From: Globisporangium splendens
Lineage: Eukaryota; Oomycota; Peronosporomycetes; Pythiales; Pythiaceae
NCBI GenBank assembly: GCA_006386115.1
Contig: VFIW01000048.1
Location: 186,001-250,000, forward strand
Length of the DNA stretch: 64,000 bases
Direction: 5' to 3'
Shown: one piece after another, positions 1-33,845 of the stretch
Layout: every line of letters begins with the position of its first letter
Numbering within the stretch: position 1 is the first letter of the stretch
Position numbers and translations under genes: made by a program
Notes under the pieces: generated by a model
Seen by the model: the letters and a program-made list of their open reading frames with translations, nothing else
Told to the model about the DNA's origin: nothing
Databases searched by the model: none

Positions 1-846
1 CGTCTTGAGAACGAGAACCAAATGGAGCGTCTTCTTCGTCGTGGCAATTCTCGTGCCCAAAGAAGAACTCCTGCTGACGACAGAGCGAATCCCAGCTCTG
101 GTCGTCGTAGTGTCGCTCCTCGCGACGCTACAAGCAGTTCTCGTAGCGGCAGACCACGTCGGGAACATCAGACTCCATCGTCTGCCGTGGCTCCCACGTG
201 TCCGAGCTCGGTGGATATCCACGCCACCGAACTCTGTAGAAGCGTTGAGGACTCAACCGCTTCTTCCCACGAGTCGGTCGATCCTCATGATCAACAATCG
301 ACTCAACCACCCAGCGATGATCTCCCTGAGAGTCTATCAATGGGGGTGGGGCTGAACGCGAAAACGATTGAGCGACTCTGGAAGTGGAAGAGTGCTCATC
401 GGGCTCAGATTGAGACACTGGAAGTTCGCGATGCGATCCTTTCGGATCGGTGCGAGAGCCTCGAGGACCAAGTGAAGGAGCAGGAGTCGCGGATCGACTC
501 GCTGACCTTTGGTCTCGCTCAGTATCTGGCTTTGGAGTCCCGTTTCGAGCAACGGTTCGAGCAAGTCCAGGGCGAACTTGAGCGACTCCGAAAGGCTGAG
601 AAGGCTCGTGAAATGCATCACGAACGTCTATTGCGCTCTGTGGAAGAGGCAGGGACGGCTCTTGAGGTACTCCGCAAGGAGTATAACTCGCGCCTTCTCG
701 TGCTGGAAGCTGTGAAGGAGGAGTCCTTCGATGTGCTTCAGCGCCTTTACGCCGAGAAGAATCTCCAAAGCGATGAGATGTTTGCTCTTCGCAATCAAGT
801 GGAGAGTCTTCAAGATCAGCTTGATCGTTTGCGGAAGATCTCGTAG
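1..846 (+). CDS. Antisense coiled-coil protein of chromovirus A (5' end outside window)
   Basis: Open from the window edge (codon 1 at base 1) to a TAG at 844-846, on the strand opposite pol. The product has a Ser/Arg/Pro-rich N-terminal part and a long heptad-rich coiled coil (roughly bases 350-840) rich in E, K, R, L and Q. It is clearly homologous to the antisense ORF of copy B; the first residues (RLEN...ERLL) align with an internal stretch of the B product, so the start lies upstream of this window. It overlaps the linker and chromodomain part of pol. Copy A pol carries frameshifts while this frame is intact. Function is unknown. A non-coding shadow of pol is the alternative, but see the conservation argument in the findings. 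Confidence 0.6.
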   Translation, partial: RLENENQMERLLRRGNSRAQRRTPADDRANPSSGRRSVAPRDATSSSRSGRPRREHQTPSSAVAPTCPSSVDIHATELCRSVEDSTASSHESVDPHDQQSTQPPSDDLPESLSMGVGLNAKTIERLWKWKSAHRAQIETLEVRDAILSDRCESLEDQVKEQESRIDSLTFGLAQYLALESRFEQRFEQVQGELERLRKAEKAREMHHERLLRSVEEAGTALEVLRKEYNSRLLVLEAVKEESFDVLQRLYAEKNLQSDEMFALRNQVESLQDQLDRLRKIS

Positions 847-2080: not shown

Positions 2081-2688
2081 TGTAATGGGCTAAGGCTGCC
2101 ATTACATGCAAGGTGGCTCTTTGTGTGTGTCACACACCACCTTGTGGAAGTGCATTGTGGGTGCGAAGATATTGGGTGAAACACATAAAAGTGATCCCCA
2201 CATGCACTTGTGACGTCATCGTCTGACGTCAGAGCAATCTATGTCTGAGTCGAGTGTTGGTCGCTCGCAATCATTGAGATTCGGCGTGATTACGCACAAC
2301 AGTACTCTAGACACGTGAGTGATGGTTCCCACTTGGGAAGCTGCACTGGTGATGAGACCGACGTGTCTCTGCCACCTAAAGTGAGTGGCTGTAGCCAATC
2401 ACTTTGCAGGGAATTTTCCACGGGACTTCAAGTTCAAGTTTCTCGAAGATCCCCTGGGTTCAACCTCAGTGTACTCAAGGTTTTATATATCCGATTCATA
2501 GGTTTTATTGTGTATGTTTAGGTTTTAGTTATAAACCTCTAGGAGCCCTAGTGGTGTTTTACATGTAGTGTCAGGAACCACAAGCTCATTTCAATTCAGT
2601 TGCATTTTTGCCAAGTTCCCCTCAAGTCTTCCTCTTCACGCGCAAGCGTGCGTGCCGTGTTTGAGGCTGTCTCGGATAGCCTCTTACA
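2081..2688 (+). repeat. 5' LTR of copy B
   Basis: 608 bp, starting TGTAATGG and ending TTACA; the first 26 bases form an imperfect inverted repeat (TGTAATGG...CCATTACA). It contains two perfect TGACGTCA palindromes at 2211-2218 and 2224-2231, which resemble CRE/bZIP sites, and AT-rich segments near 2480-2540. It matches the 3' LTR well over about its first 480 bases with scattered substitutions, then differs near its 3' end. Confidence 0.9.
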
Positions 2689-2795: not shown

Positions 2796-3839
2796 ATGGA
2801 AGGGATTGAGACGCCGATGGGCTCGATGCCTGGAGAGACCGTGGAGCTGACGAATGAGCATTTTCCTCATTTGTCGAGCCACGAGTGGGCAGCCCTCGAG
2901 CGTATGCGAGCGGTCATCGGTGAGGCGGCTGTGATCAGTTTGCTGAGATCAGCGTCACCGGATGAGCAGAGGAACGCGGCTACGAGCTTCATGCATCACG
3001 AGATCATGAACTCTCATCGACAGCCCGCAACTCCTGTCACGACGATGAGAGTGGCACCTCTGAAGCTCGATGTATCTCCGTACCGTGGCGGAGAGAACGA
3101 ACCTCTAGCGAGATGGTTCGTTGAGTTGGATGCAGCGATCACTGCAAGACAACTACGGGACCCAATGCAGCAAGTGTTGTTTGCGATGTCAAACCTTGCG
3201 GGTCGAGCGAAGAGTTGGGCGTATGGGAAGCGATTGGCGGAGCCACATTGCTTCTACGACCTGGACGACTTCAAGCGAGAGCTGAAGAAGGCTTTTGAAC
3301 CTCCGCAGAGCGAATTTCGGGCTCGCGCTGAGTTCTTAAAGCTTCGTCAGGGTAAATACGACCTACACTCGTACGCTCAACGAGCACGATACCTCGTGTC
3401 AAGTATCGTGAATGAGCCGATTGATGCCTCAACGCAAGTTGTGACATTCATGGCAGGGCTCAGTGATGGTCCAATTCGGAACCAGCTGTTCCGCGAGTAC
3501 CCCAAGACGCTGGATGAAGCCATCGAGCGAGCGATGCAAGAAGAATTCAGCATCAAGCAAGCCAAGTTCAACGGTTTCGGCCCTCGCCCTGTTCGACAAC
3601 ACGCAGTCACACACGACGGTCCAGAACCGATGGACATCTCGTATGCCGATGCGACCGCTAACAGACAGCCATGCAATGACGGGAAGTGTTTCCGTTGTGG
3701 CAAGCCCGGTCACATCGCAAGAAATTGCAAGGTGTCCTTGCCAAGCCAGCAAGCGACACACGGTTCGCGATCGAATCGACCAGGCAGAGGCCGGCGATTC
3801 GAGCGTTCCCAACAGCCAAAAAACGGGAACGACCAGTAG
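2796..3839 (+). CDS. Gag polyprotein of copy B
   Basis: 347-residue capsid/nucleocapsid protein starting at the first ATG after the leader. The middle (about residues 85-240) is a retrotransposon gag capsid region with the conserved W/F-rich core (ARWFVELD, AKSWAYG, EFLKLRQG, LFREYPKTLDEA). A single CCHC zinc knuckle (CFRCGKPGHIARNC, residue 298 on) binds the RNA genome. The 3' end overlaps pol by 154 bases in the -1 frame, with a slippery heptamer 13 codon positions or fewer from the stop. The copy C gag has the same length and architecture. Confidence 0.93.
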   Translation: MEGIETPMGSMPGETVELTNEHFPHLSSHEWAALERMRAVIGEAAVISLLRSASPDEQRNAATSFMHHEIMNSHRQPATPVTTMRVAPLKLDVSPYRGGENEPLARWFVELDAAITARQLRDPMQQVLFAMSNLAGRAKSWAYGKRLAEPHCFYDLDDFKRELKKAFEPPQSEFRARAEFLKLRQGKYDLHSYAQRARYLVSSIVNEPIDASTQVVTFMAGLSDGPIRNQLFREYPKTLDEAIERAMQEEFSIKQAKFNGFGPRPVRQHAVTHDGPEPMDISYADATANRQPCNDGKCFRCGKPGHIARNCKVSLPSQQATHGSRSNRPGRGRRFERSQQPKNGNDQ

Positions 3840-6800
3840 GAGCGGGGCTCCCTACTGGGCGAACAAAGAGTTCTGTGAATGTCGTGGAAGCGCAGAACTC
3901 TTGCCCCGGTGTGCGCAATGCACATGAAGTTTCCGCGAACAGATGTGAGCGTGTCGAGCAAGAGCCAGCCTTGATAGTCCACAAGGTTAAGGTAGATGGT
4001 TACTCAGAACCTCTACGGGCTCTTGTAGACACTGGTGCGTCGAACAATTTTGTCCGCACACAAGTGGTGAGAAGGCAAGGTTTGGACCTGCCTATCTCGA
4101 ACAAGGAAATGATCGTTCGCTTGGCGAATGGATCGAAAGTGACGATGCCTAAGCGCGTGTTGCGTATGGCAATCGAATGTGATGATTTCCGAGGCGAAGA
4201 CGAGTTTATAGCACTCGACCTCGATGACAAGTTTGATCTGATTCTGGGAATGCCCTGGCTGAGAAGGTACCAACCGAGCATTGACTGGAAGAAGAAGAAG
4301 ATCAGCGTCGACAAGCAAGTCGACGAAGACCTCAGCTGCCAGGCAGCAAGAGAGGTGATTTGGGCATATACATCTGTTGAAGATGTGTCTAATGAGAGTC
4401 AGGCGTGCGATGGCCCCTCACACTCAAATGACAAGCCCGTGAAGACCACTGGAGGTGGAGTAGTCAGGCGCCAGAAAAAGACTACTCCTGTAGCCAAGAG
4501 CGATGAAGAGTTCCGCTCTGGCAGGGTTAAAGAAGACAAGAAGACCGACGAAGAAGAACGAAGATCTGCAAGCGTCCCTGATCAAGACACAAGAAAGGCA
4601 GAAGATGAAGTGAAGCGACAAGAACAAGCCACTTCAAGCGAATATGTGAACGTCGCAGTCTACAATGAAGAAGGTGACAGCCAGATAGTGCGTCACGTAC
4701 AAGTGGAAAATCCTCCAAGTCTGGCTCAAGAATTGATTTCCTTGCCGTTGATGAGCAAGAAGACGCTTAAGCGTAGCCTGGCGAAAGGCGAAATTTCGCA
4801 AATTTGTGCGATCGTCGATGAAGTTGCCGACGATGTCATCAACACTGCGGAAGTGTTAGATGAGAGGACACGGAAGGAGAGGTTTGATGAGCAGTCGTGG
4901 GACGCTCTAAAGACAAACCCCGTGTATGGACTTGCCAAGGAATATGCGGACATATTTCCAGACAAAGTGCCGGACGAATTGCCGCAGGACAGAGGCATTC
5001 GTCACGAGATAGATGTACTTCCGGGAACGAAGTACTGTATCACGAGGCAATGGCCGCTACCGAAGGAACAAGTCGATGCGATCGACGAGTTCTTCGCGCA
5101 GCGACAGAAGGCTGGCCATGTGCGCGAGAGCAAGTCTCCGCACTGTAGTCCCACCTTCTGTGTGAAGAAGGCCACAGGCGGTTGGCGCATTGTTCATGCA
5201 TTCAACAAATTGAATGATGCGACCATACCTGCTCAGACCCCAGTTCCACGCAAGGATATGATCCTTGATGGAATGGTTGGCAGCACTGTCTTTAGCGCGA
5301 TCGATCTGAAAGACGGGTTCTATCAGATTCGAATGCGCGAGAGCGATGTACCATTTACAGCAGTTAGCACCCCGAGTGGTATGCTGTGGGAGTGGATGGT
5401 GATGCCACAAGGTCTGAAGAACGCACCAGCAACTTTCAACAGAATGGTCACGAATGTACTTCATCCATTGAGAGAGTTTGCACCGAGCTACTTTGACGAC
5501 ATATTCGTTCATAGTAAGGCCTCGGAAGGGAAGAAAGATGTCGATGTTCATCTTGAACATCTTCGTCAAGTCTTTCAAGTTATGCGTGAGAACAAACTGT
5601 ACGCTAACTTGAAGAAATGCATCTTCTTCGCCCCCGAGATCCCTATACTCGGTTGCTTTGTTGGCAAGAATGGCGTTCGGGTCGATCCTGAGAAGGTCAA
5701 GTCTATCGACGATTGGCCTATTCCTCAGAACGTCAAACAGCTACGTCAGTGGCTGGGTTTGGCCAACTATTTGCAAAAATACACGCGCAACTATGCAGCG
5801 TTAGTGCAACCCCTCACGAGTCTTTTGAAGAAAGATAATGAGTGGGAATGGTCAGAGGAACATCAGGCAGCGTTTGCCGAAGTAAAGAAGAGCTTAAGAG
5901 AAGCTCCTGTCCTAGCTCTCGCAGACCATGAGAAGCCGTTCCATGTAGTCTGCGATGCGAGCGACTATGCCATCGGGTGTGCACTGATGCAACACGATGA
6001 TGAGGGCAAAGAAAGAGTTGTGTCGTATCAGTCACGACAACTCCGACCCGCAGAACGGAACTATCCGGTCCATGACAAGGAACTATTGGCCATGAAGTAT
6101 GCATTGGCAAAGTTCCGAGTCTATTTGCTTGGTGAAAAGCAGTTCGCTATTTACACTGATCACGCATCACTGCGGACAGCTGTAAAGACGCCTCACCTAT
6201 CGCAAAGAATGGCAAGATGGTTTTCCTTCTTCGCTGAGTACAACTTTGTTGTACATTATAAGCCCGGCAAGTCAAACATTCTTGCCGATGCGCTGTCAAG
6301 ACGTCCGGATTATGATCCGAAGAACAAGAGTGACGACACGAACGGAGCGTGCCGACTCTGTGAAGACGTCAACGCGATTGCTACGGGAGTGACAAGCACA
6401 GTCCAAGAAGAGATCACTGAGGGATACAAGCAAGACGAAGCATGCCAAGAACTGATCAAGTATTTCAAGAATCCCTCAGAGAAGGCACTCCAAAACCTCC
6501 CACCAAGAGCAAGATCGCGTGTTCACCGTTACAGCATGCACAGTGGGCTGCTGTACTATACGGTTGACGAAGGGGATCCAGCGAGGATCGTTGTCCCCAA
6601 CGACGAAGGTCTGCGTCATCGACTCTTGTACGAGTATCATGACGGTCCTTCGAGTGGCCATCTCGGACGTGAGAAAACGTTTCTCAACTTGTCTCGAGAT
6701 TACTACTGGCCTCACATGTACAAGTGGGTTCGCAAGTATGTGCGTACTTGCGAAGTGTGCCAAAGAGTTAAGCCATCCGGCTCTACTCGGGCCCCACTTC

Positions 6801-8521
6801 GTTCATTGGCTGTCCCTCAGGACAGTTGGAAGTCTGTGAGTATGGACTTCATATTCGGACTTCCAAGAGACAAACACGGACGCAATGGCATCCTTGTGTT
6901 TGTGGACCGATTCAGCAAGATGGTCCATCTTGCGCCGGTCTCGGATAAGATCTCGGCAGAGATGACTGCGAAAGTCTTTGTAGACGTGGTGTTCCGTCTA
7001 CATGGTCTGCCCTCGGAGATCGTATCAGACCGTGACACTCGGTTTACGTCTAGGTTCTGGCGAACTCTGCTTGGCATTTTGGATACAAAACTATCCATGT
7101 CAACAGCAGCACACCCAGAGACAGACGGCCAAACTGAACGAGTGAATCGTGTCCTTGAAGACGTGTTGCGCAGTTATGCGACGTCTTTCGGAGAGTGGAG
7201 TGAGTCTCTCCCTCTCGCAGAGTTTGCGTTGAACAACTCCACGCATGTCTCGACAGGTCATACCCCGTTCTATGTGAACTACGGACTCCACCCGAGAGTG
7301 CCAGCGTCACTAGTGGGAGAGGTTTCTACCTTAAGTGGGGGAGAGACTATGGCTAAGGAGCCACAGTCGGATCTGAATGCTGTCACAGAGTTAAAAGCGA
7401 ATTTTGACTCGATGAAACCTCTAGACGACATGACAAGTCGTGAGGAACAGCAAGTCGATGACTTTATTGTGAGGAGACAAGCCGTTGTGAGGTTTGTTCG
7501 AGACGCAATTGCAAAGGCTCAGGATCTGCAAAAGGAACAAGCAGATAGGAGCGGAAGGAAGAACAAGCAAGTGTATAAGATCAATGATCTTGTATTACTT
7601 AGCACGGCTAATCTACCTGAACACGCAGTGTCTAACTTGGGGAGTTCGAAACTTCTGCCAAGATATATTGGACCGTTCAGGGTAGTTAAATGCAATGGTG
7701 ATGCCTACACGCTAGACATTCCTAAACGCATGCGACTACACCCTACGTTCTACGTAGGTAGACTAAAGCCTTACCTTCCAAGTGGGTCAGCGAACCCTAC
7801 AGAGCCTTTGGCAGACGATCAAGTCGATCCTGAAGTCGCTCCACCAGCTCGCGAAGAGTCTGTAACTCATCGCCATGGAGCTTCTTCTCGGCATAAAGGT
7901 GCTGAAGCACATCAAAGGACTCGTCCTTTATTGTCTCCAACGCGAGAAGGCGACCATGATACTCCTTCCGAAGTATCTCAAGAGAAGCCCCTGCCTCTTC
8001 CACAGAGCGCAGTAGACGTTCGTGATACGCATCACGAGCTTTCTCAGCCTTCTGGAGTCGTTCAAGCTCGGCTTGAATCTTCTCGAACCTTTGTTCGAAA
8101 TGTGACTCCATTGCCGAACGCTGGGCAAGACCATCGAAGAGCAAGTCGATCTTCGACTCCTGCTCCTTCAACCAGTCTTCGAGGCTTTCGCACCGGTCTT
8201 CGAGTACCGCGTTGCGAACTTCAAGAGCCTCGATCTGAGCGCGGTGAGCACTCTCCCACTTCCAGAGTCGCTCAATCGTTTTCGCGTTCAGCCCCACCTC
8301 CTCTGATCGATCATCAGGGAGAGCGTCGTTGGATCGTTGAGTCGATAGTCGATCACGAGGATCGATCGACTCGTCGTCGAGGAGAGAAGTCGTTGAACCG
8401 TCAACGCTTCTACAGAGTACGGTGGCTTGGCTGTCCGCCGGACTCGGACACGTGGGAACCTCGAGAGACTCTTCAGTCTGATGTTCCCGACGTGGTTCAC
8501 AGTTACGAACAGAGCTTGTAG
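3686..8521 (+). CDS. Pol polyprotein of copy B (PR-RT-RNase H-IN-chromodomain)
   Basis: Made as Gag-Pol by -1 frameshifting, so the functional part begins near 3821; no start codon of its own is needed. Domains in order: aspartic protease (LVDTGASNNF, about 4020), a charged linker, reverse transcriptase with the catalytic YFDDIF motif near 5490, RNase H (CDASDYAIG near 5950; TDHASL near 6160), integrase HHCC finger near 6630-6770, and the D,D35E core (MDFIFGLP; SDRDTRF; DGQTERVNRVLED) to about 7160. A low-complexity linker and a C-terminal chromodomain follow (RFYRVRWLG...DSDTWEP, 8408-8460), which usually directs integration to particular chromatin. The frame is uninterrupted. From 7797 on it shares its DNA with the antisense coiled-coil ORF. 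Confidence 0.95.
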   Translation: MFPLWQARSHRKKLQGVLAKPASDTRFAIESTRQRPAIRAFPTAKKRERPVGAGLPTGRTKSSVNVVEAQNSCPGVRNAHEVSANRCERVEQEPALIVHKVKVDGYSEPLRALVDTGASNNFVRTQVVRRQGLDLPISNKEMIVRLANGSKVTMPKRVLRMAIECDDFRGEDEFIALDLDDKFDLILGMPWLRRYQPSIDWKKKKISVDKQVDEDLSCQAAREVIWAYTSVEDVSNESQACDGPSHSNDKPVKTTGGGVVRRQKKTTPVAKSDEEFRSGRVKEDKKTDEEERRSASVPDQDTRKAEDEVKRQEQATSSEYVNVAVYNEEGDSQIVRHVQVENPPSLAQELISLPLMSKKTLKRSLAKGEISQICAIVDEVADDVINTAEVLDERTRKERFDEQSWDALKTNPVYGLAKEYADIFPDKVPDELPQDRGIRHEIDVLPGTKYCITRQWPLPKEQVDAIDEFFAQRQKAGHVRESKSPHCSPTFCVKKATGGWRIVHAFNKLNDATIPAQTPVPRKDMILDGMVGSTVFSAIDLKDGFYQIRMRESDVPFTAVSTPSGMLWEWMVMPQGLKNAPATFNRMVTNVLHPLREFAPSYFDDIFVHSKASEGKKDVDVHLEHLRQVFQVMRENKLYANLKKCIFFAPEIPILGCFVGKNGVRVDPEKVKSIDDWPIPQNVKQLRQWLGLANYLQKYTRNYAALVQPLTSLLKKDNEWEWSEEHQAAFAEVKKSLREAPVLALADHEKPFHVVCDASDYAIGCALMQHDDEGKERVVSYQSRQLRPAERNYPVHDKELLAMKYALAKFRVYLLGEKQFAIYTDHASLRTAVKTPHLSQRMARWFSFFAEYNFVVHYKPGKSNILADALSRRPDYDPKNKSDDTNGACRLCEDVNAIATGVTSTVQEEITEGYKQDEACQELIKYFKNPSEKALQNLPPRARSRVHRYSMHSGLLYYTVDEGDPARIVVPNDEGLRHRLLYEYHDGPSSGHLGREKTFLNLSRDYYWPHMYKWVRKYVRTCEVCQRVKPSGSTRAPLRSLAVPQDSWKSVSMDFIFGLPRDKHGRNGILVFVDRFSKMVHLAPVSDKISAEMTAKVFVDVVFRLHGLPSEIVSDRDTRFTSRFWRTLLGILDTKLSMSTAAHPETDGQTERVNRVLEDVLRSYATSFGEWSESLPLAEFALNNSTHVSTGHTPFYVNYGLHPRVPASLVGEVSTLSGGETMAKEPQSDLNAVTELKANFDSMKPLDDMTSREEQQVDDFIVRRQAVVRFVRDAIAKAQDLQKEQADRSGRKNKQVYKINDLVLLSTANLPEHAVSNLGSSKLLPRYIGPFRVVKCNGDAYTLDIPKRMRLHPTFYVGRLKPYLPSGSANPTEPLADDQVDPEVAPPAREESVTHRHGASSRHKGAEAHQRTRPLLSPTREGDHDTPSEVSQEKPLPLPQSAVDVRDTHHELSQPSGVVQARLESSRTFVRNVTPLPNAGQDHRRASRSSTPAPSTSLRGFRTGLRVPRCELQEPRSERGEHSPTSRVAQSFSRSAPPPLIDHQGERRWIVESIVDHEDRSTRRRGEKSLNRQRFYRVRWLGCPPDSDTWEPRETLQSDVPDVVHSYEQSL
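3818..3824 (+). promoter_or_regulatory. -1 ribosomal frameshift slippery site, gag to pol
   Basis: A_AAA_AAC in the gag frame (CCA AAA AAC), matching the X_XXY_YYZ rule exactly, 12 bases before the gag stop codon. Slipping back one base puts ribosomes into the pol frame, which is open from there to 8521. Copy C has the same heptamer at 10159-10165 on the minus strand. A downstream structure was not worked out. Confidence 0.85.
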
Positions 8522-8846
8522 TGCTCTCGCGAGCACTAGAACGACTAGAGCCAAGCTCTTTATGGTCGTTCTCGAGCGTGCCTCCTAGGTTCCCTAGCAA
8601 ACGCTCGACAAGACTCTCGTTCTCGAGTCGGACAAACGTCTTCCACGACTCGAGCTTCGCTGTGCTGGACTGGCCAGGATCGTCGCTGCCGGACATCTTG
8701 CGCCAGAGGAAGAACAACTCCTTGTAGAACCGACGTCCTCCACGCTTCTTGCGAATAGCGGAGATGTCGTACAAGCCGGGAGTCGTCCGCTGCCGCTTTG
8801 GCTCGGGCCGTTCTTCGCGCTTCACTTGGTCGCTTGATCGCTTCAT
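7797..8846 (-). CDS. Antisense basic/coiled-coil protein of copy B
   Basis: 349-residue ORF on the strand opposite pol. I chose the ATG at 8846, which opens a basic, NLS-like start (MKRSSDQVKREERPEPKRQR) between pol and the 3' LTR; the frame is open further upstream into the LTR to 9116. After the basic N-terminus come a Ser/Thr-rich middle and a C-terminal coiled coil of about 150 residues (from LNAKTIERLWKW to the stop) with regular Leu/Ile heptads. About 725 bases overlap the pol linker and chromodomain. Copy A keeps the homologous ORF intact. Transcription would have to start in or near the 3' LTR, reading leftwards. Function unknown; the layout recalls antisense genes of some retroviruses, but no homology is claimed. 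Confidence 0.65.
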   Translation of the reverse strand: MKRSSDQVKREERPEPKRQRTTPGLYDISAIRKKRGGRRFYKELFFLWRKMSGSDDPGQSSTAKLESWKTFVRLENESLVERLLGNLGGTLENDHKELGSSRSSARESTTSSVRNCEPRREHQTEESLEVPTCPSPADSQATVLCRSVDGSTTSLLDDESIDPRDRLSTQRSNDALPDDRSEEVGLNAKTIERLWKWESAHRAQIEALEVRNAVLEDRCESLEDWLKEQESKIDLLFDGLAQRSAMESHFEQRFEKIQAELERLQKAEKARDAYHERLLRSVEEAGASLEILRKEYHGRLLALETIKDESFDVLQHLYAEKKLHGDELQTLRELVERLQDRLDRLPKAL

Positions 8847-8922
8847 GGTCAATTGGAAAGTGAGAGCGGGTGCCTCTTCCGAAAGAAGTAAAGTCCGTGA
8901 TGGAACTTTAAGGGAGGGATGA

Positions 8923-9562
8923 TGTAATGGGCTAAGGCTGCCATTACATGCAAGGTGGCTCTTTGTGTGTGTCACACACCACCTTGTGGAAGTGCATTGT
9001 GGGTGCGAAGATATTGGGTGAAACACATAATAGTGATCCCCACATGCACAGGTGACGTCATCGTCTGACGTCAGAGCAATCTGTGTCTGAGTTGAGTGTT
9101 GGTCGCTCGCAATCATTGAGATTCGGCGTGATTACGCACAACAGTACTCTAGACATGTGAATGATGGTTCCTACTTGGGAAACTGCACTGGTGATGAGAC
9201 CGACGTGTCTCTGCCACCTAAAGTGAGTGGCTGTAGCCAATCACTTTGCAGGGAATTTTCCACGGGACTTCAAGTTCAAGCTTCTCGAAGATCCCCTGGG
9301 TTCAACCTCAGTGTACCCAAGGTTTTATATATCAGATTCATAGGTTTTATTGTGCATGTTTAGGTTTTAGTTATAAAACCTCTAGGAGCCCTAGTGGTGT
9401 TTTACAAGTAGTGTCAGGAACCATAAGCTCATTTCAATTCAGTTGCAATTTTACCACCAAGCCCTCAAGTCTTCCTTCCTCCCTCCAAGTCGGGAGACGC
9501 TTCCTCTGGCACAAGCGTGTGTGCCGTGTTTGAGGGACTGTTTGGAATAGCGCCCTCTTACA
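8923..9562 (+). repeat. 3' LTR of copy B, chimeric
   Basis: 640 bp, TGTAATGG...TTACA, preceded by the purine tract AAGGGAGGGAT. The first three quarters match the 5' LTR. The last ~125 bases instead match the LTR of copy C almost perfectly, including a segment with GGGAGACGCTTCCTCTGGCA that the 5' LTR lacks. TGACGTCA palindromes lie at 9053-9060 and 9066-9073. Confidence 0.9.
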
Positions 9563-11313: not shown

Positions 11314-11965
11314 TGTAAGAGGGCGCTGTTCCAAACAGTCCCTCAAACACGGCACACACGCTTGTGCCAGAGGAAGCGTCTCCCGACTTGGAGGGAGGAA
11401 GGAAGACTTGAGGGCTTGGTGGTAAAATTGCAACTGAATTAAAACGTGCTTATGATTCCTGTCGCTACTTGTAAATGAACCCCAAGGGCTCCCACACGTT
11501 TTATAACTAAAACCTAAACATACACAATAAAACCTATGAATCTGATATATAAAACCTTGGGTACACTGAGGTTGAACCCAGGGGATCTTCGAGAAACTTG
11601 AACTTGAAGTCCCGTGGAAAATTCCCTGCAAAGTGATTGGCTACAGCCACTCACTTTAGGTGGCAGACACACGTCGGTCTCATCACCAGCGCAGTTTCCC
11701 AAGTAGGAATCATCACTCAGTACTTGATTAGTACATGGATGTCATCACTCTGTACTGATTAGTACATGTGAACAACATTCTGCACTGATCAGCACAGAGA
11801 GCGCTCGTGACGTCATGGGATGACGTCACATGTGCATGTGGGGACTGTCGTACTGTAATCCCTTTGTTATTTGTCTCTCCACAATGCACACTGAAGGTGG
11901 TGTGTGGCACACTAGATCTGGGAACAGATCCACCTTCATGTAATGGCTGGTTTTAACCCATTACA
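11314..11965 (-). repeat. 5' LTR of copy C
   Basis: 652 bp in minus orientation with TGTAATGG...TTACA ends. It carries paired TGACGTCA palindromes (11808-11815 and 11821-11828) at the same 13-bp spacing as in copy B. It also has a unique block of three imperfect palindromes (11719-11736, 11751-11766, 11781-11796) of the form TGTACTGATTAGTACA, each preceded by a similar short motif, absent from the copy B LTRs. Confidence 0.88.
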
Positions 11966-27230: not shown

Positions 27231-27250
27231 GGGCAAATTGGAAAGTGAGG
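27231..27250 (-). promoter_or_regulatory. Oomycete-type core promoter of lipase 1
   Basis: On the minus strand CCTCACTTTCCAATTTGCCC, matching the initiator (TCAYTTY) and flanking element (CAATTTGCC) known from Phytophthora genes, 41-60 bases upstream of the ATG. Confidence 0.75.
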
Positions 27251-30226: not shown

Positions 30227-30245
30227 GCTCACTTTGCAATTTGCT
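30227..30245 (+). promoter_or_regulatory. Oomycete-type core promoter of lipase 2
   Basis: GCTCACTTTGCAATTTGCT: initiator plus flanking promoter element, about 36 bases before the ATG. Sequence identity with lipase copy 3 begins exactly here. Confidence 0.8.
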
Positions 30246-33826: not shown

Positions 33827-33845
33827 TCTCACTTTGCAATTTGCT
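33827..33845 (+). promoter_or_regulatory. Oomycete-type core promoter of lipase 3
   Basis: TCTCACTTTGCAATTTGCT, identical to that of lipase 2 from the CTCAC onward, about 36 bases before the ATG. Confidence 0.8.

Follow-up and report, generated by a model that had tools for sequence, protein, structure and literature searches.

Introduction

Several long terminal repeat (LTR) retrotransposons carry an extra gene in antisense orientation to gag-pol. In the plant Ty3/gypsy elements Grande of maize (gene23), RIRE2 of rice and Retand of Silene, this open reading frame (ORF), named aORF-3R, is described as lying between pol and the 3' LTR (PMC7264820, PMC11963269), and for Grande a promoter upstream of the ORF and a nuclear product have been reported (PMC7264820). 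Boty-like elements of Botrytis cinerea are described as carrying the antisense gene brtn (PMC8365987, PMC7264820), and among the oomycetes the Ty3/gypsy element Chronos is described as having a separately acquired chromodomain after its integrase (PMC5348765), in an article whose main text does not contain the word "antisense". The present study concerns element B, an LTR retrotransposon of the oomycete Globisporangium splendens with gag and pol on the forward strand, which is located in a stretch of 64,000 nucleotides (nt) of contig VFIW01000048.1 (positions 186,001 to 250,000; assembly GCA_006386115.1), referred to below as the window. Opposite its gag-pol, element B almost certainly carries a third protein gene, whose product, judging from comparisons of its copies, is maintained by purifying selection.

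The antisense gene occupies positions 7797..8846 on the minus strand (349 amino acids, aa; ATG at 8846, TAG at 7797-7799). It resembles the plant aORF-3R in being antisense to gag-pol, in adjoining the 3' LTR (which starts at 8923) and in being present in most copies, and the function of the plant ORFs is likewise described as not known (PMC7264820, PMC11963269). It differs in its oomycete host, and in that about two thirds of the gene are found opposite the linker and chromodomain of pol, not in the spacer between pol and LTR; the word "overlap" is absent from the main text of both PMC7264820 and PMC11963269. Retand is assigned to a non-chromovirus lineage (PMC11963269), whereas element B has a chromodomain, and a Pfam search of six antisense proteins, extended to E 0.1, returned no hit to the Retand-type domain TRP28 (PF04195). 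On these sequence features, the antisense gene of this chromodomain retrotransposon is best described as an oomycete variant of the known antisense extra ORFs, one that overlaps pol deeply. Boty is, like element B, an LTR retrotransposon from outside the plants that carries an additional antisense gene, a likeness drawn from its description alone.

Two viral genes also invite comparison: HBZ of human T-cell leukaemia virus type 1 (HTLV-1), whose gene lies near the 3' LTR and encodes a bZIP protein, and asp of human immunodeficiency virus type 1 (HIV-1), which lies opposite env. Like the gene described here, HBZ is encoded in antisense orientation, and its product is nuclear (PMC11963269), a location that in our case is a prediction. 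The LTR of element B also carries paired TGACGTCA sites; no Pfam match to bZIP was obtained up to E 0.1 in the six antisense proteins, the modelled protein of element B offering a long helix only, and the likeness, between a retrovirus and a retrotransposon, is one of features. The asp gene, too, encodes a protein antisense to an older gene that it overlaps; it is described as confined to one virus group (PMC10846101), whereas here it is pol that is overlapped, and several families share the arrangement. Chronos shares with element B a Ty3/gypsy polyprotein with a chromodomain after the integrase in oomycetes, and differs in its extra plant-type ribonuclease H (RNase H) (PMC5348765), for which the pol of element B gave no PF00075 match. 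Among the titles and opening lines of abstracts in the literature, no oomycete antisense retrotransposon gene was recognisable, and the passages of PMC3522703 on Phytophthora infestans concern small RNAs.

Results

Position and extent of the antisense gene

An initial annotation, prepared from the window alone, had reported a long ORF on the minus strand, facing the linker and chromodomain of pol; this ORF, of 349 aa, is present at 7797-8846 in the ORF list. It extends 325 nt past the pol stop, so that 108 of its 349 codons fall in the spacer before the 3' LTR, with the remainder opposite pol. The ATG is located 76 nt from the edge of the 3' LTR, on the internal side, and 22 nt separate the stop codon from the SH3-like domain of pol; the mechanical ORF has its upstream limit at an ATG within the LTR (9116). 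The pol-free part (8522..8846, minus strand; aa 1-108) has a basic start that by eye resembles a nuclear localisation signal (NLS), and the motif FYKELFF/SWKTFVRLENE. The part opposite the chromodomain and the linker covers 7797..8521 on the minus strand.

Selection on the two reading frames

In the 108 pol-free codons, nine pairs of copies gave ratios of nonsynonymous to synonymous substitution rates (dN/dS) of 0.21-0.39, with a bootstrap upper bound below 1 in seven of them; for L051/L079 and L080/L066, the two least diverged pairs, the interval included 1. The synonymous rate (dS) was near saturation (1.4-2.0) in the pairs with L009, three in number, and ranged from 0.05 to 0.80 elsewhere; the pairs are not independent, as they share sequences and the subfamilies recombine. 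The initial annotation had proposed a real extra gene on the opposite strand, a claim now strongly supported by these ratios and by a frame that is open in most copies. A dN/dS near 1 together with frequent stops across copies, which it had named as counting against such a gene, was not observed, and 98 of 116 antisense matches in the genome were without an internal stop (hand count).

Inside the overlap, antisense codon position 1 lies opposite sense position 1, antisense position 2 opposite sense position 3, and antisense position 3 opposite sense position 2. Comparing element B with the second copy in the window (copy A), the initial annotation had counted 13 antisense aa differences over 60 codons from LNAKTIERLWKW, and 7, 2 and 13 differences at antisense positions 1, 2 and 3 in the first 44 codons; our recounts were identical. 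For pol, where it had given about 22 differences, the recount gave 25 in 59 codons.

Across the linker (177 codons), sense position 2 was the most variable in all six pairs of copies compared, with changes at sense positions 1, 2 and 3 of 19, 59 and 31 (L009/L075), 28, 66 and 33 (L051/L075) or 37, 51 and 28 (L009/L051). Equal counts at the three positions were rejected with p = 0.02 for L009/L051 and p of 1.4e-4 or less in the other four pairs. The integrase served as a control, for which eight loci were loaded and pairs formed among four, L041 and L043 being stopped in every frame: here sense position 3 was the fastest in five of five pairs and position 2 the slowest in four, with 51, 23 and 148 changes in 493 codons for L009/L051, and 2, 5 and 8 for the nearly identical L009/L036. 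When linker changes were classed by their effect in both frames, those silent in the antisense frame and altering pol had the top rate. The rate of changes altering both products relative to antisense-silent changes (NN/NS) was 0.36-0.66, and that of pol-silent, antisense-altering changes relative to antisense-silent, pol-altering ones was 0.38-0.56; for both ratios the bootstrap interval stayed below 1 in each of the five pairs. Opposite the linker, the overlap thus shows what is expected of an overprinted gene, namely purifying selection acting on the antisense frame.

Opposite the chromodomain, changes at sense position 3 were the most frequent in each of the six pairs (one pair had 12, 10 and 19 changes at sense positions 1, 2 and 3), which indicates that there the constraint on pol dominates. 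Over the whole overlap, nine pairs gave an antisense measure (NN/NS) of 0.42-0.70 and a pol measure (NN/SN) of 0.57-1.47. Constraint is split by region, falling on the antisense frame opposite the linker and on pol in the chromodomain. As far as the substitution patterns tell, the antisense frame is the stronger of the two constraints on the DNA opposite the linker, and the opposite strand appears to have had more influence than pol itself on the form of the pol linker.

The length of the open frame was compared with randomised sequences. Synonymous recoding of pol with pol's own codon usage introduced 7.8 antisense stops on average, and the frame stayed stop-free in one of 20,000 trials; shuffling the codon order of pol never did so (0/20,000), and randomising the linker alone did so in 8 of 20,000 trials.

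Copies in the host genome

The content of the host genome agrees with an oomycete: it gave 71 matches to the elicitins, a family of oomycete proteins, whereas 14 control genomes, those named being prokaryotes, gave none. The host genome was searched with the antisense protein, and 116 of the 475 candidate places were scored (identity 61-100%, some partial). In all, 72 non-duplicate loci were taken (L009-L080; L001-L008 duplicate eight of them): L009-L038 were selected by antisense-protein similarity, which favours intact frames, L039-L068 by DNA similarity, and L069-L080 were hand-picked for diversity from the scored protein matches. A near-full antisense match was present at 67 of the 72 loci, L039, L040, L044, L050 and L056 having no near-full single match. 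Premature stops were found in six of the 67 (L019, L024, L034, L037, L064 and L072), so that, as for aORF-3R, the gene is conserved in most copies (61 of 67), in a sampling tilted to intact ones. Among the 30 loci selected by DNA similarity, 25 had a near-full match and 24 were without a premature stop, including L060, in which the antisense ATG is absent.

Copy A (L039) is represented in the window by the C-terminal part of its antisense gene (1..846, plus strand). The initial annotation had called this ORF intact, which holds inside the window; in the contig the frame is broken, with two antisense matches in different frames; the switch between them lies approximately 15-45 nt beyond the left edge of the window, which cuts it off.

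The copies form diverged and partly mosaic subfamilies, the antisense proteins of 15 representatives being 53-98% identical. The antisense genes and pol ends of L069-L080, compared with L009 and L051, resemble mosaics of a few diverged modules; L072, for example, is 76% identical to element B in its antisense protein and 93% in the C-terminus of pol. Such mosaic modules suggest recombination between subfamilies.

Antisense genes in other chromodomain families

A chromodomain search of the host genome, in which 150 of 697 candidates were scored, provided four further loci (L081-L084), and a long antisense frame was found at the same place as in element B in all four. In these other families (L081-L088, on contigs C121, C140, C32 and C115) the antisense ORFs, of about 350-540 aa, lie opposite the linker between integrase and chromodomain. 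The families, designated F2, F3 and F4, are hand-picked loci and no systematic survey of chromodomain elements, F4 having been picked through its match to the F3 antisense protein.

The F2a and F2b ORFs encode 511 and 514 aa and are 60% identical. Approximately 317 of the 511 antisense codons of F2a are located outside pol, and over 307 such codons the F2a/F2b comparison gave a dN/dS of 0.29 (0.15-0.42). A search with the F2a antisense protein returned 120 matches, 22 of them with internal stops (hand count), and randomised F2 overlaps were stop-free in 50 and 76 of 10,000 trials. The F3 ORF comprises at least 536 aa from the first ATG, and its frame is still open at the edge of the sequence examined. 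Compared outside pol with two relatives of about 80% identity, F3 gave a dN/dS of 0.25 (0.14-0.40; 168 codons) with the first, which has one stop, and of 0.21 (0.13-0.34; 167 codons) with the second. The F3 search returned 97 matches, some only 25-39% identical. Its overlap remained stop-free in 1,513 of 10,000 randomisations, which is not improbable by chance. The antisense protein of F4 (L088), encoded opposite the F4 chromodomain by a copy with one in-frame stop upstream, is a homologue of that of F3 (27% identical, E 6e-24).

The relative phase of the sense and antisense frames in F2, F3 and, by arithmetic, F4 is the same as in element B. The antisense protein of element B gave a weak profile match to F3/F4, over 44 columns around FYxxLFF...SWxxF (hhalign E 5e-4, probability 32%), and the F2 protein showed no similarity to the others in the comparisons made; a common origin of the antisense genes of all families is therefore put forward here only as possible. 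By position and coding pattern, the antisense gene is a feature that extends beyond element B to other chromodomain families. In a PF00075 search bearing on whether these families could be Chronos elements (150 of 283 candidates scored), no row was noticed near the F2a, F2b, F3 or F4 loci. Contigs C123 and C131 displayed rows of long RNase H-bearing ORFs approximately 6-8 kb apart, perhaps clustered retroelements.

Candidate promoter and LTR sites

The oomycete initiator is given as YCAYTYY in PMC3599244, and a motif scan based on this definition located an initiator-type motif, TCACTTTCCAATT, at 8851..8863 on the minus strand, beginning 17 nt ahead of the antisense ATG. YCAYTYY was found at most 40 nt from the ATG in 62 of 67 copies, in 61 of them at exactly 17 nt. 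Upstream of the ATG, where the subfamilies are otherwise diverged, the block TCACTTTCCAAT was exact in eight of 12 aligned copies and showed one or two base differences in the other four. The presence of a conserved initiator-type motif between the 3' LTR and the ATG implies that transcription need not start inside the LTR. A longer initiator pattern, TCAYTYYNCAWTT, matched five times in the 64-kb window, compared with 0.19 matches expected; the other exact matches are located at 1385-1397, 27236-27248, 30229-30241 and 33829-33841, and some may be host gene promoters.

Both LTRs of element B carry a TGACGTCA-N5-TGACGTCA pair, at 9053..9073 in the 3' LTR and at 2211..2231 in the 5' LTR, and the pair occurs at a third place in the window (11808..11828). 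We take such paired sites to be what is called CRE-like. The pair found no match in 100 shuffles. Among the 66 copies with enough upstream sequence, 56 have the pair and 64 at least one site, with none in L075. The TGACGTCA pairs are possibly bZIP-type control sites, and we conjecture that they may act as shared or two-way control sites. An initiator-like TCATTTC, noticed by eye at 9429 in the 3' LTR, would serve the sense transcript.

Predicted protein

An AlphaFold2 model, built from two sequences of the window, had a mean predicted local distance difference test score (pLDDT) of 67.4 and a predicted template modelling score (pTM) of 0.30. It displays a long helix, a predicted coiled coil, over aa 188-321 (7884..8285, minus strand), within which aa 191-310 reach a pLDDT of about 91-98. 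The N-terminal part, helical over aa 28-86, is less certain, and the Ser-rich middle is of low confidence.

Architecture and setting of element B

Element B is delimited by a 5' LTR (2081..2688) and a 3' LTR (8923..9562), found by repeat detection on the forward strand with ends placed by eye; 30 of 608 aligned positions differ between the two, and no target-site duplication was evident by eye. On the same strand, the ORF list and Pfam identified gag (2796..3839; Retrotrans_gag with a CCHC knuckle) and pol (3686..8521), the latter encoding protease, reverse transcriptase (RT), RNase H, integrase, an SH3_Tf2-1-like domain (pol aa 1301-1363; 7586..7774) and a chromodomain (8330..8512). The linker between integrase and chromodomain is by eye of low complexity. 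The chromodomain (PF00385, pol aa 1549-1609, E 4e-11) is C-terminal to the integrase, an arrangement expected of a chromovirus. A minus-strand relative, read from ORFs and repeats, appears to flank element B in two parts (1-2080 and 9563 to about 11,700, at 11719), with its RT/RNase H part missing.

Discussion

On balance we favour an explanation in which the antisense gene encodes a leftward-transcribed nuclear coiled-coil regulator of the element. A leftward mRNA would be made from the region between the ATG and the 3' LTR, starting at the initiator-type motif and helped by sites in the 3' LTR, and on the conservation of these upstream sequences the gene probably has a leftward promoter of its own. 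The product, with its basic N-terminus, helical N-terminal region, Ser-rich middle and long coiled coil, would oligomerise and is predicted, with somewhat less assurance, to be nuclear. It may act as an accessory regulator of the nuclear phase of the element, most simply of LTR transcription. That it regulates the element's own transcription or integration is a tentative proposal, made because such a role has been suggested for the plant antisense ORFs (PMC7264820, PMC11963269).

Several observations weigh against this explanation. Regarding the promoter, the longer pattern TCAYTYYNCAWTT is present in only 31 of the 67 copies, and YCAYTYY had no match upstream of the ATG in the two F2 copies examined. 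A start at the initiator-type motif would leave a leader of about 15 nt, unusually close to the ATG, since start sites in the high-confidence set of P. infestans are located 32-144 nt before it (PMC3599244). Regarding the protein, the Lys/Arg-rich NLS-like clusters in the families examined were recognised by eye only, Pfam searches of the six antisense proteins (up to E 0.1) gave no match naming a function, and the best match among PDB sequences (E 0.013) was below the cut-off, with no PDB fold reaching E 0.001. Regarding selection, no antisense constraint was visible opposite the chromodomain in the six pairs, and among the 188 codons of the overlap in F2a and F2b there were 13, 20 and 26 differences at sense positions 1, 2 and 3, so that the dominance of position 2 seen in element B is not repeated there. 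Finally, a change of codon 73 from CGA to TGA is common to L019, L024, L034 and L037, that is four of 30 B-type copies, and because the same nonsense codon recurs, some transposed copies may have lacked the antisense product. A clean haplotype common to the carriers was looked for and none was found, in a comparison from which misaligned columns past about +1330 were left out; the codon-73 stop is possibly a CpG hotspot, or the mark of a lineage without product.

The main rival accepts a real protein and places it in the cytoplasm or the particle, where its coiled coil would bind Gag or Pol in trans and limit or assist assembly, as a form of copy-number control. A long, confidently predicted helix suits protein-protein binding, and no recognisable DNA-binding domain rose above the Pfam cut-off; set against this are the NLS-like clusters seen by eye and the nuclear location of the maize Grande antisense protein (PMC7264820). 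We consider the cytoplasmic partner rather unlikely. A little less likely still is an ancient third gene shared by the chromodomain retrotransposons of oomycetes, of which the pol linker would be mainly the back side, with the 3' LTR as a two-way promoter and an HBZ-like feedback evolved independently of retroviruses; its products would be nuclear coiled-coil proteins of about 350-540 aa, and the LTRs of some subfamilies would carry the paired TGACGTCA sites.

Much less probable is that the antisense transcript acts as RNA, through silencing by double-stranded or small RNAs or through transcriptional interference, with the open frame incidental. Retroelement RNAs of antisense orientation that may have regulatory roles are described (PMC7264820), as are small RNAs of both orientations along Gypsy elements of P. 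infestans (PMC3522703). Selection at the protein level outside pol in three families, and the antisense codon-position pattern inside the overlap of element B, both speak for a translated product, and the dN/dS values disfavour an antisense RNA without protein; an RNA effect alongside the protein may nevertheless exist. Equally improbable is the capture of a host coiled-coil gene: gene capture by retroelements is known and no convincing relatives were found in Pfam or among PDB sequences, which would fit a host origin, yet the C-terminus of pol lies on the opposite strand at all 72 non-duplicate loci compared, and the families hold diverged or unrelated versions, which suggests an old association of the gene with these elements. 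A host copy may still lie among the candidate places beyond the 116 of 475 that were scored. An open frame arising by chance or composition opposite a low-complexity linker, as the F3 randomisations would allow, can be dismissed, since stop-free frames were rare in the randomisations of element B (1/20,000) and F2 and dN/dS is well below 1 outside pol.

Antisense extra genes of LTR retrotransposons are discussed mainly for plants and one fungal group; here several families in a single oomycete genome carry an antisense gene that is partly overprinted on pol. The many copies of this overprinted gene make selection on both strands measurable. Such a gene family would, we infer, escape annotation pipelines in which repeats are masked and overlapping antisense ORFs discarded. 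With three diverged families and an initiator-type motif to work from, its transcription and function can be tested directly.

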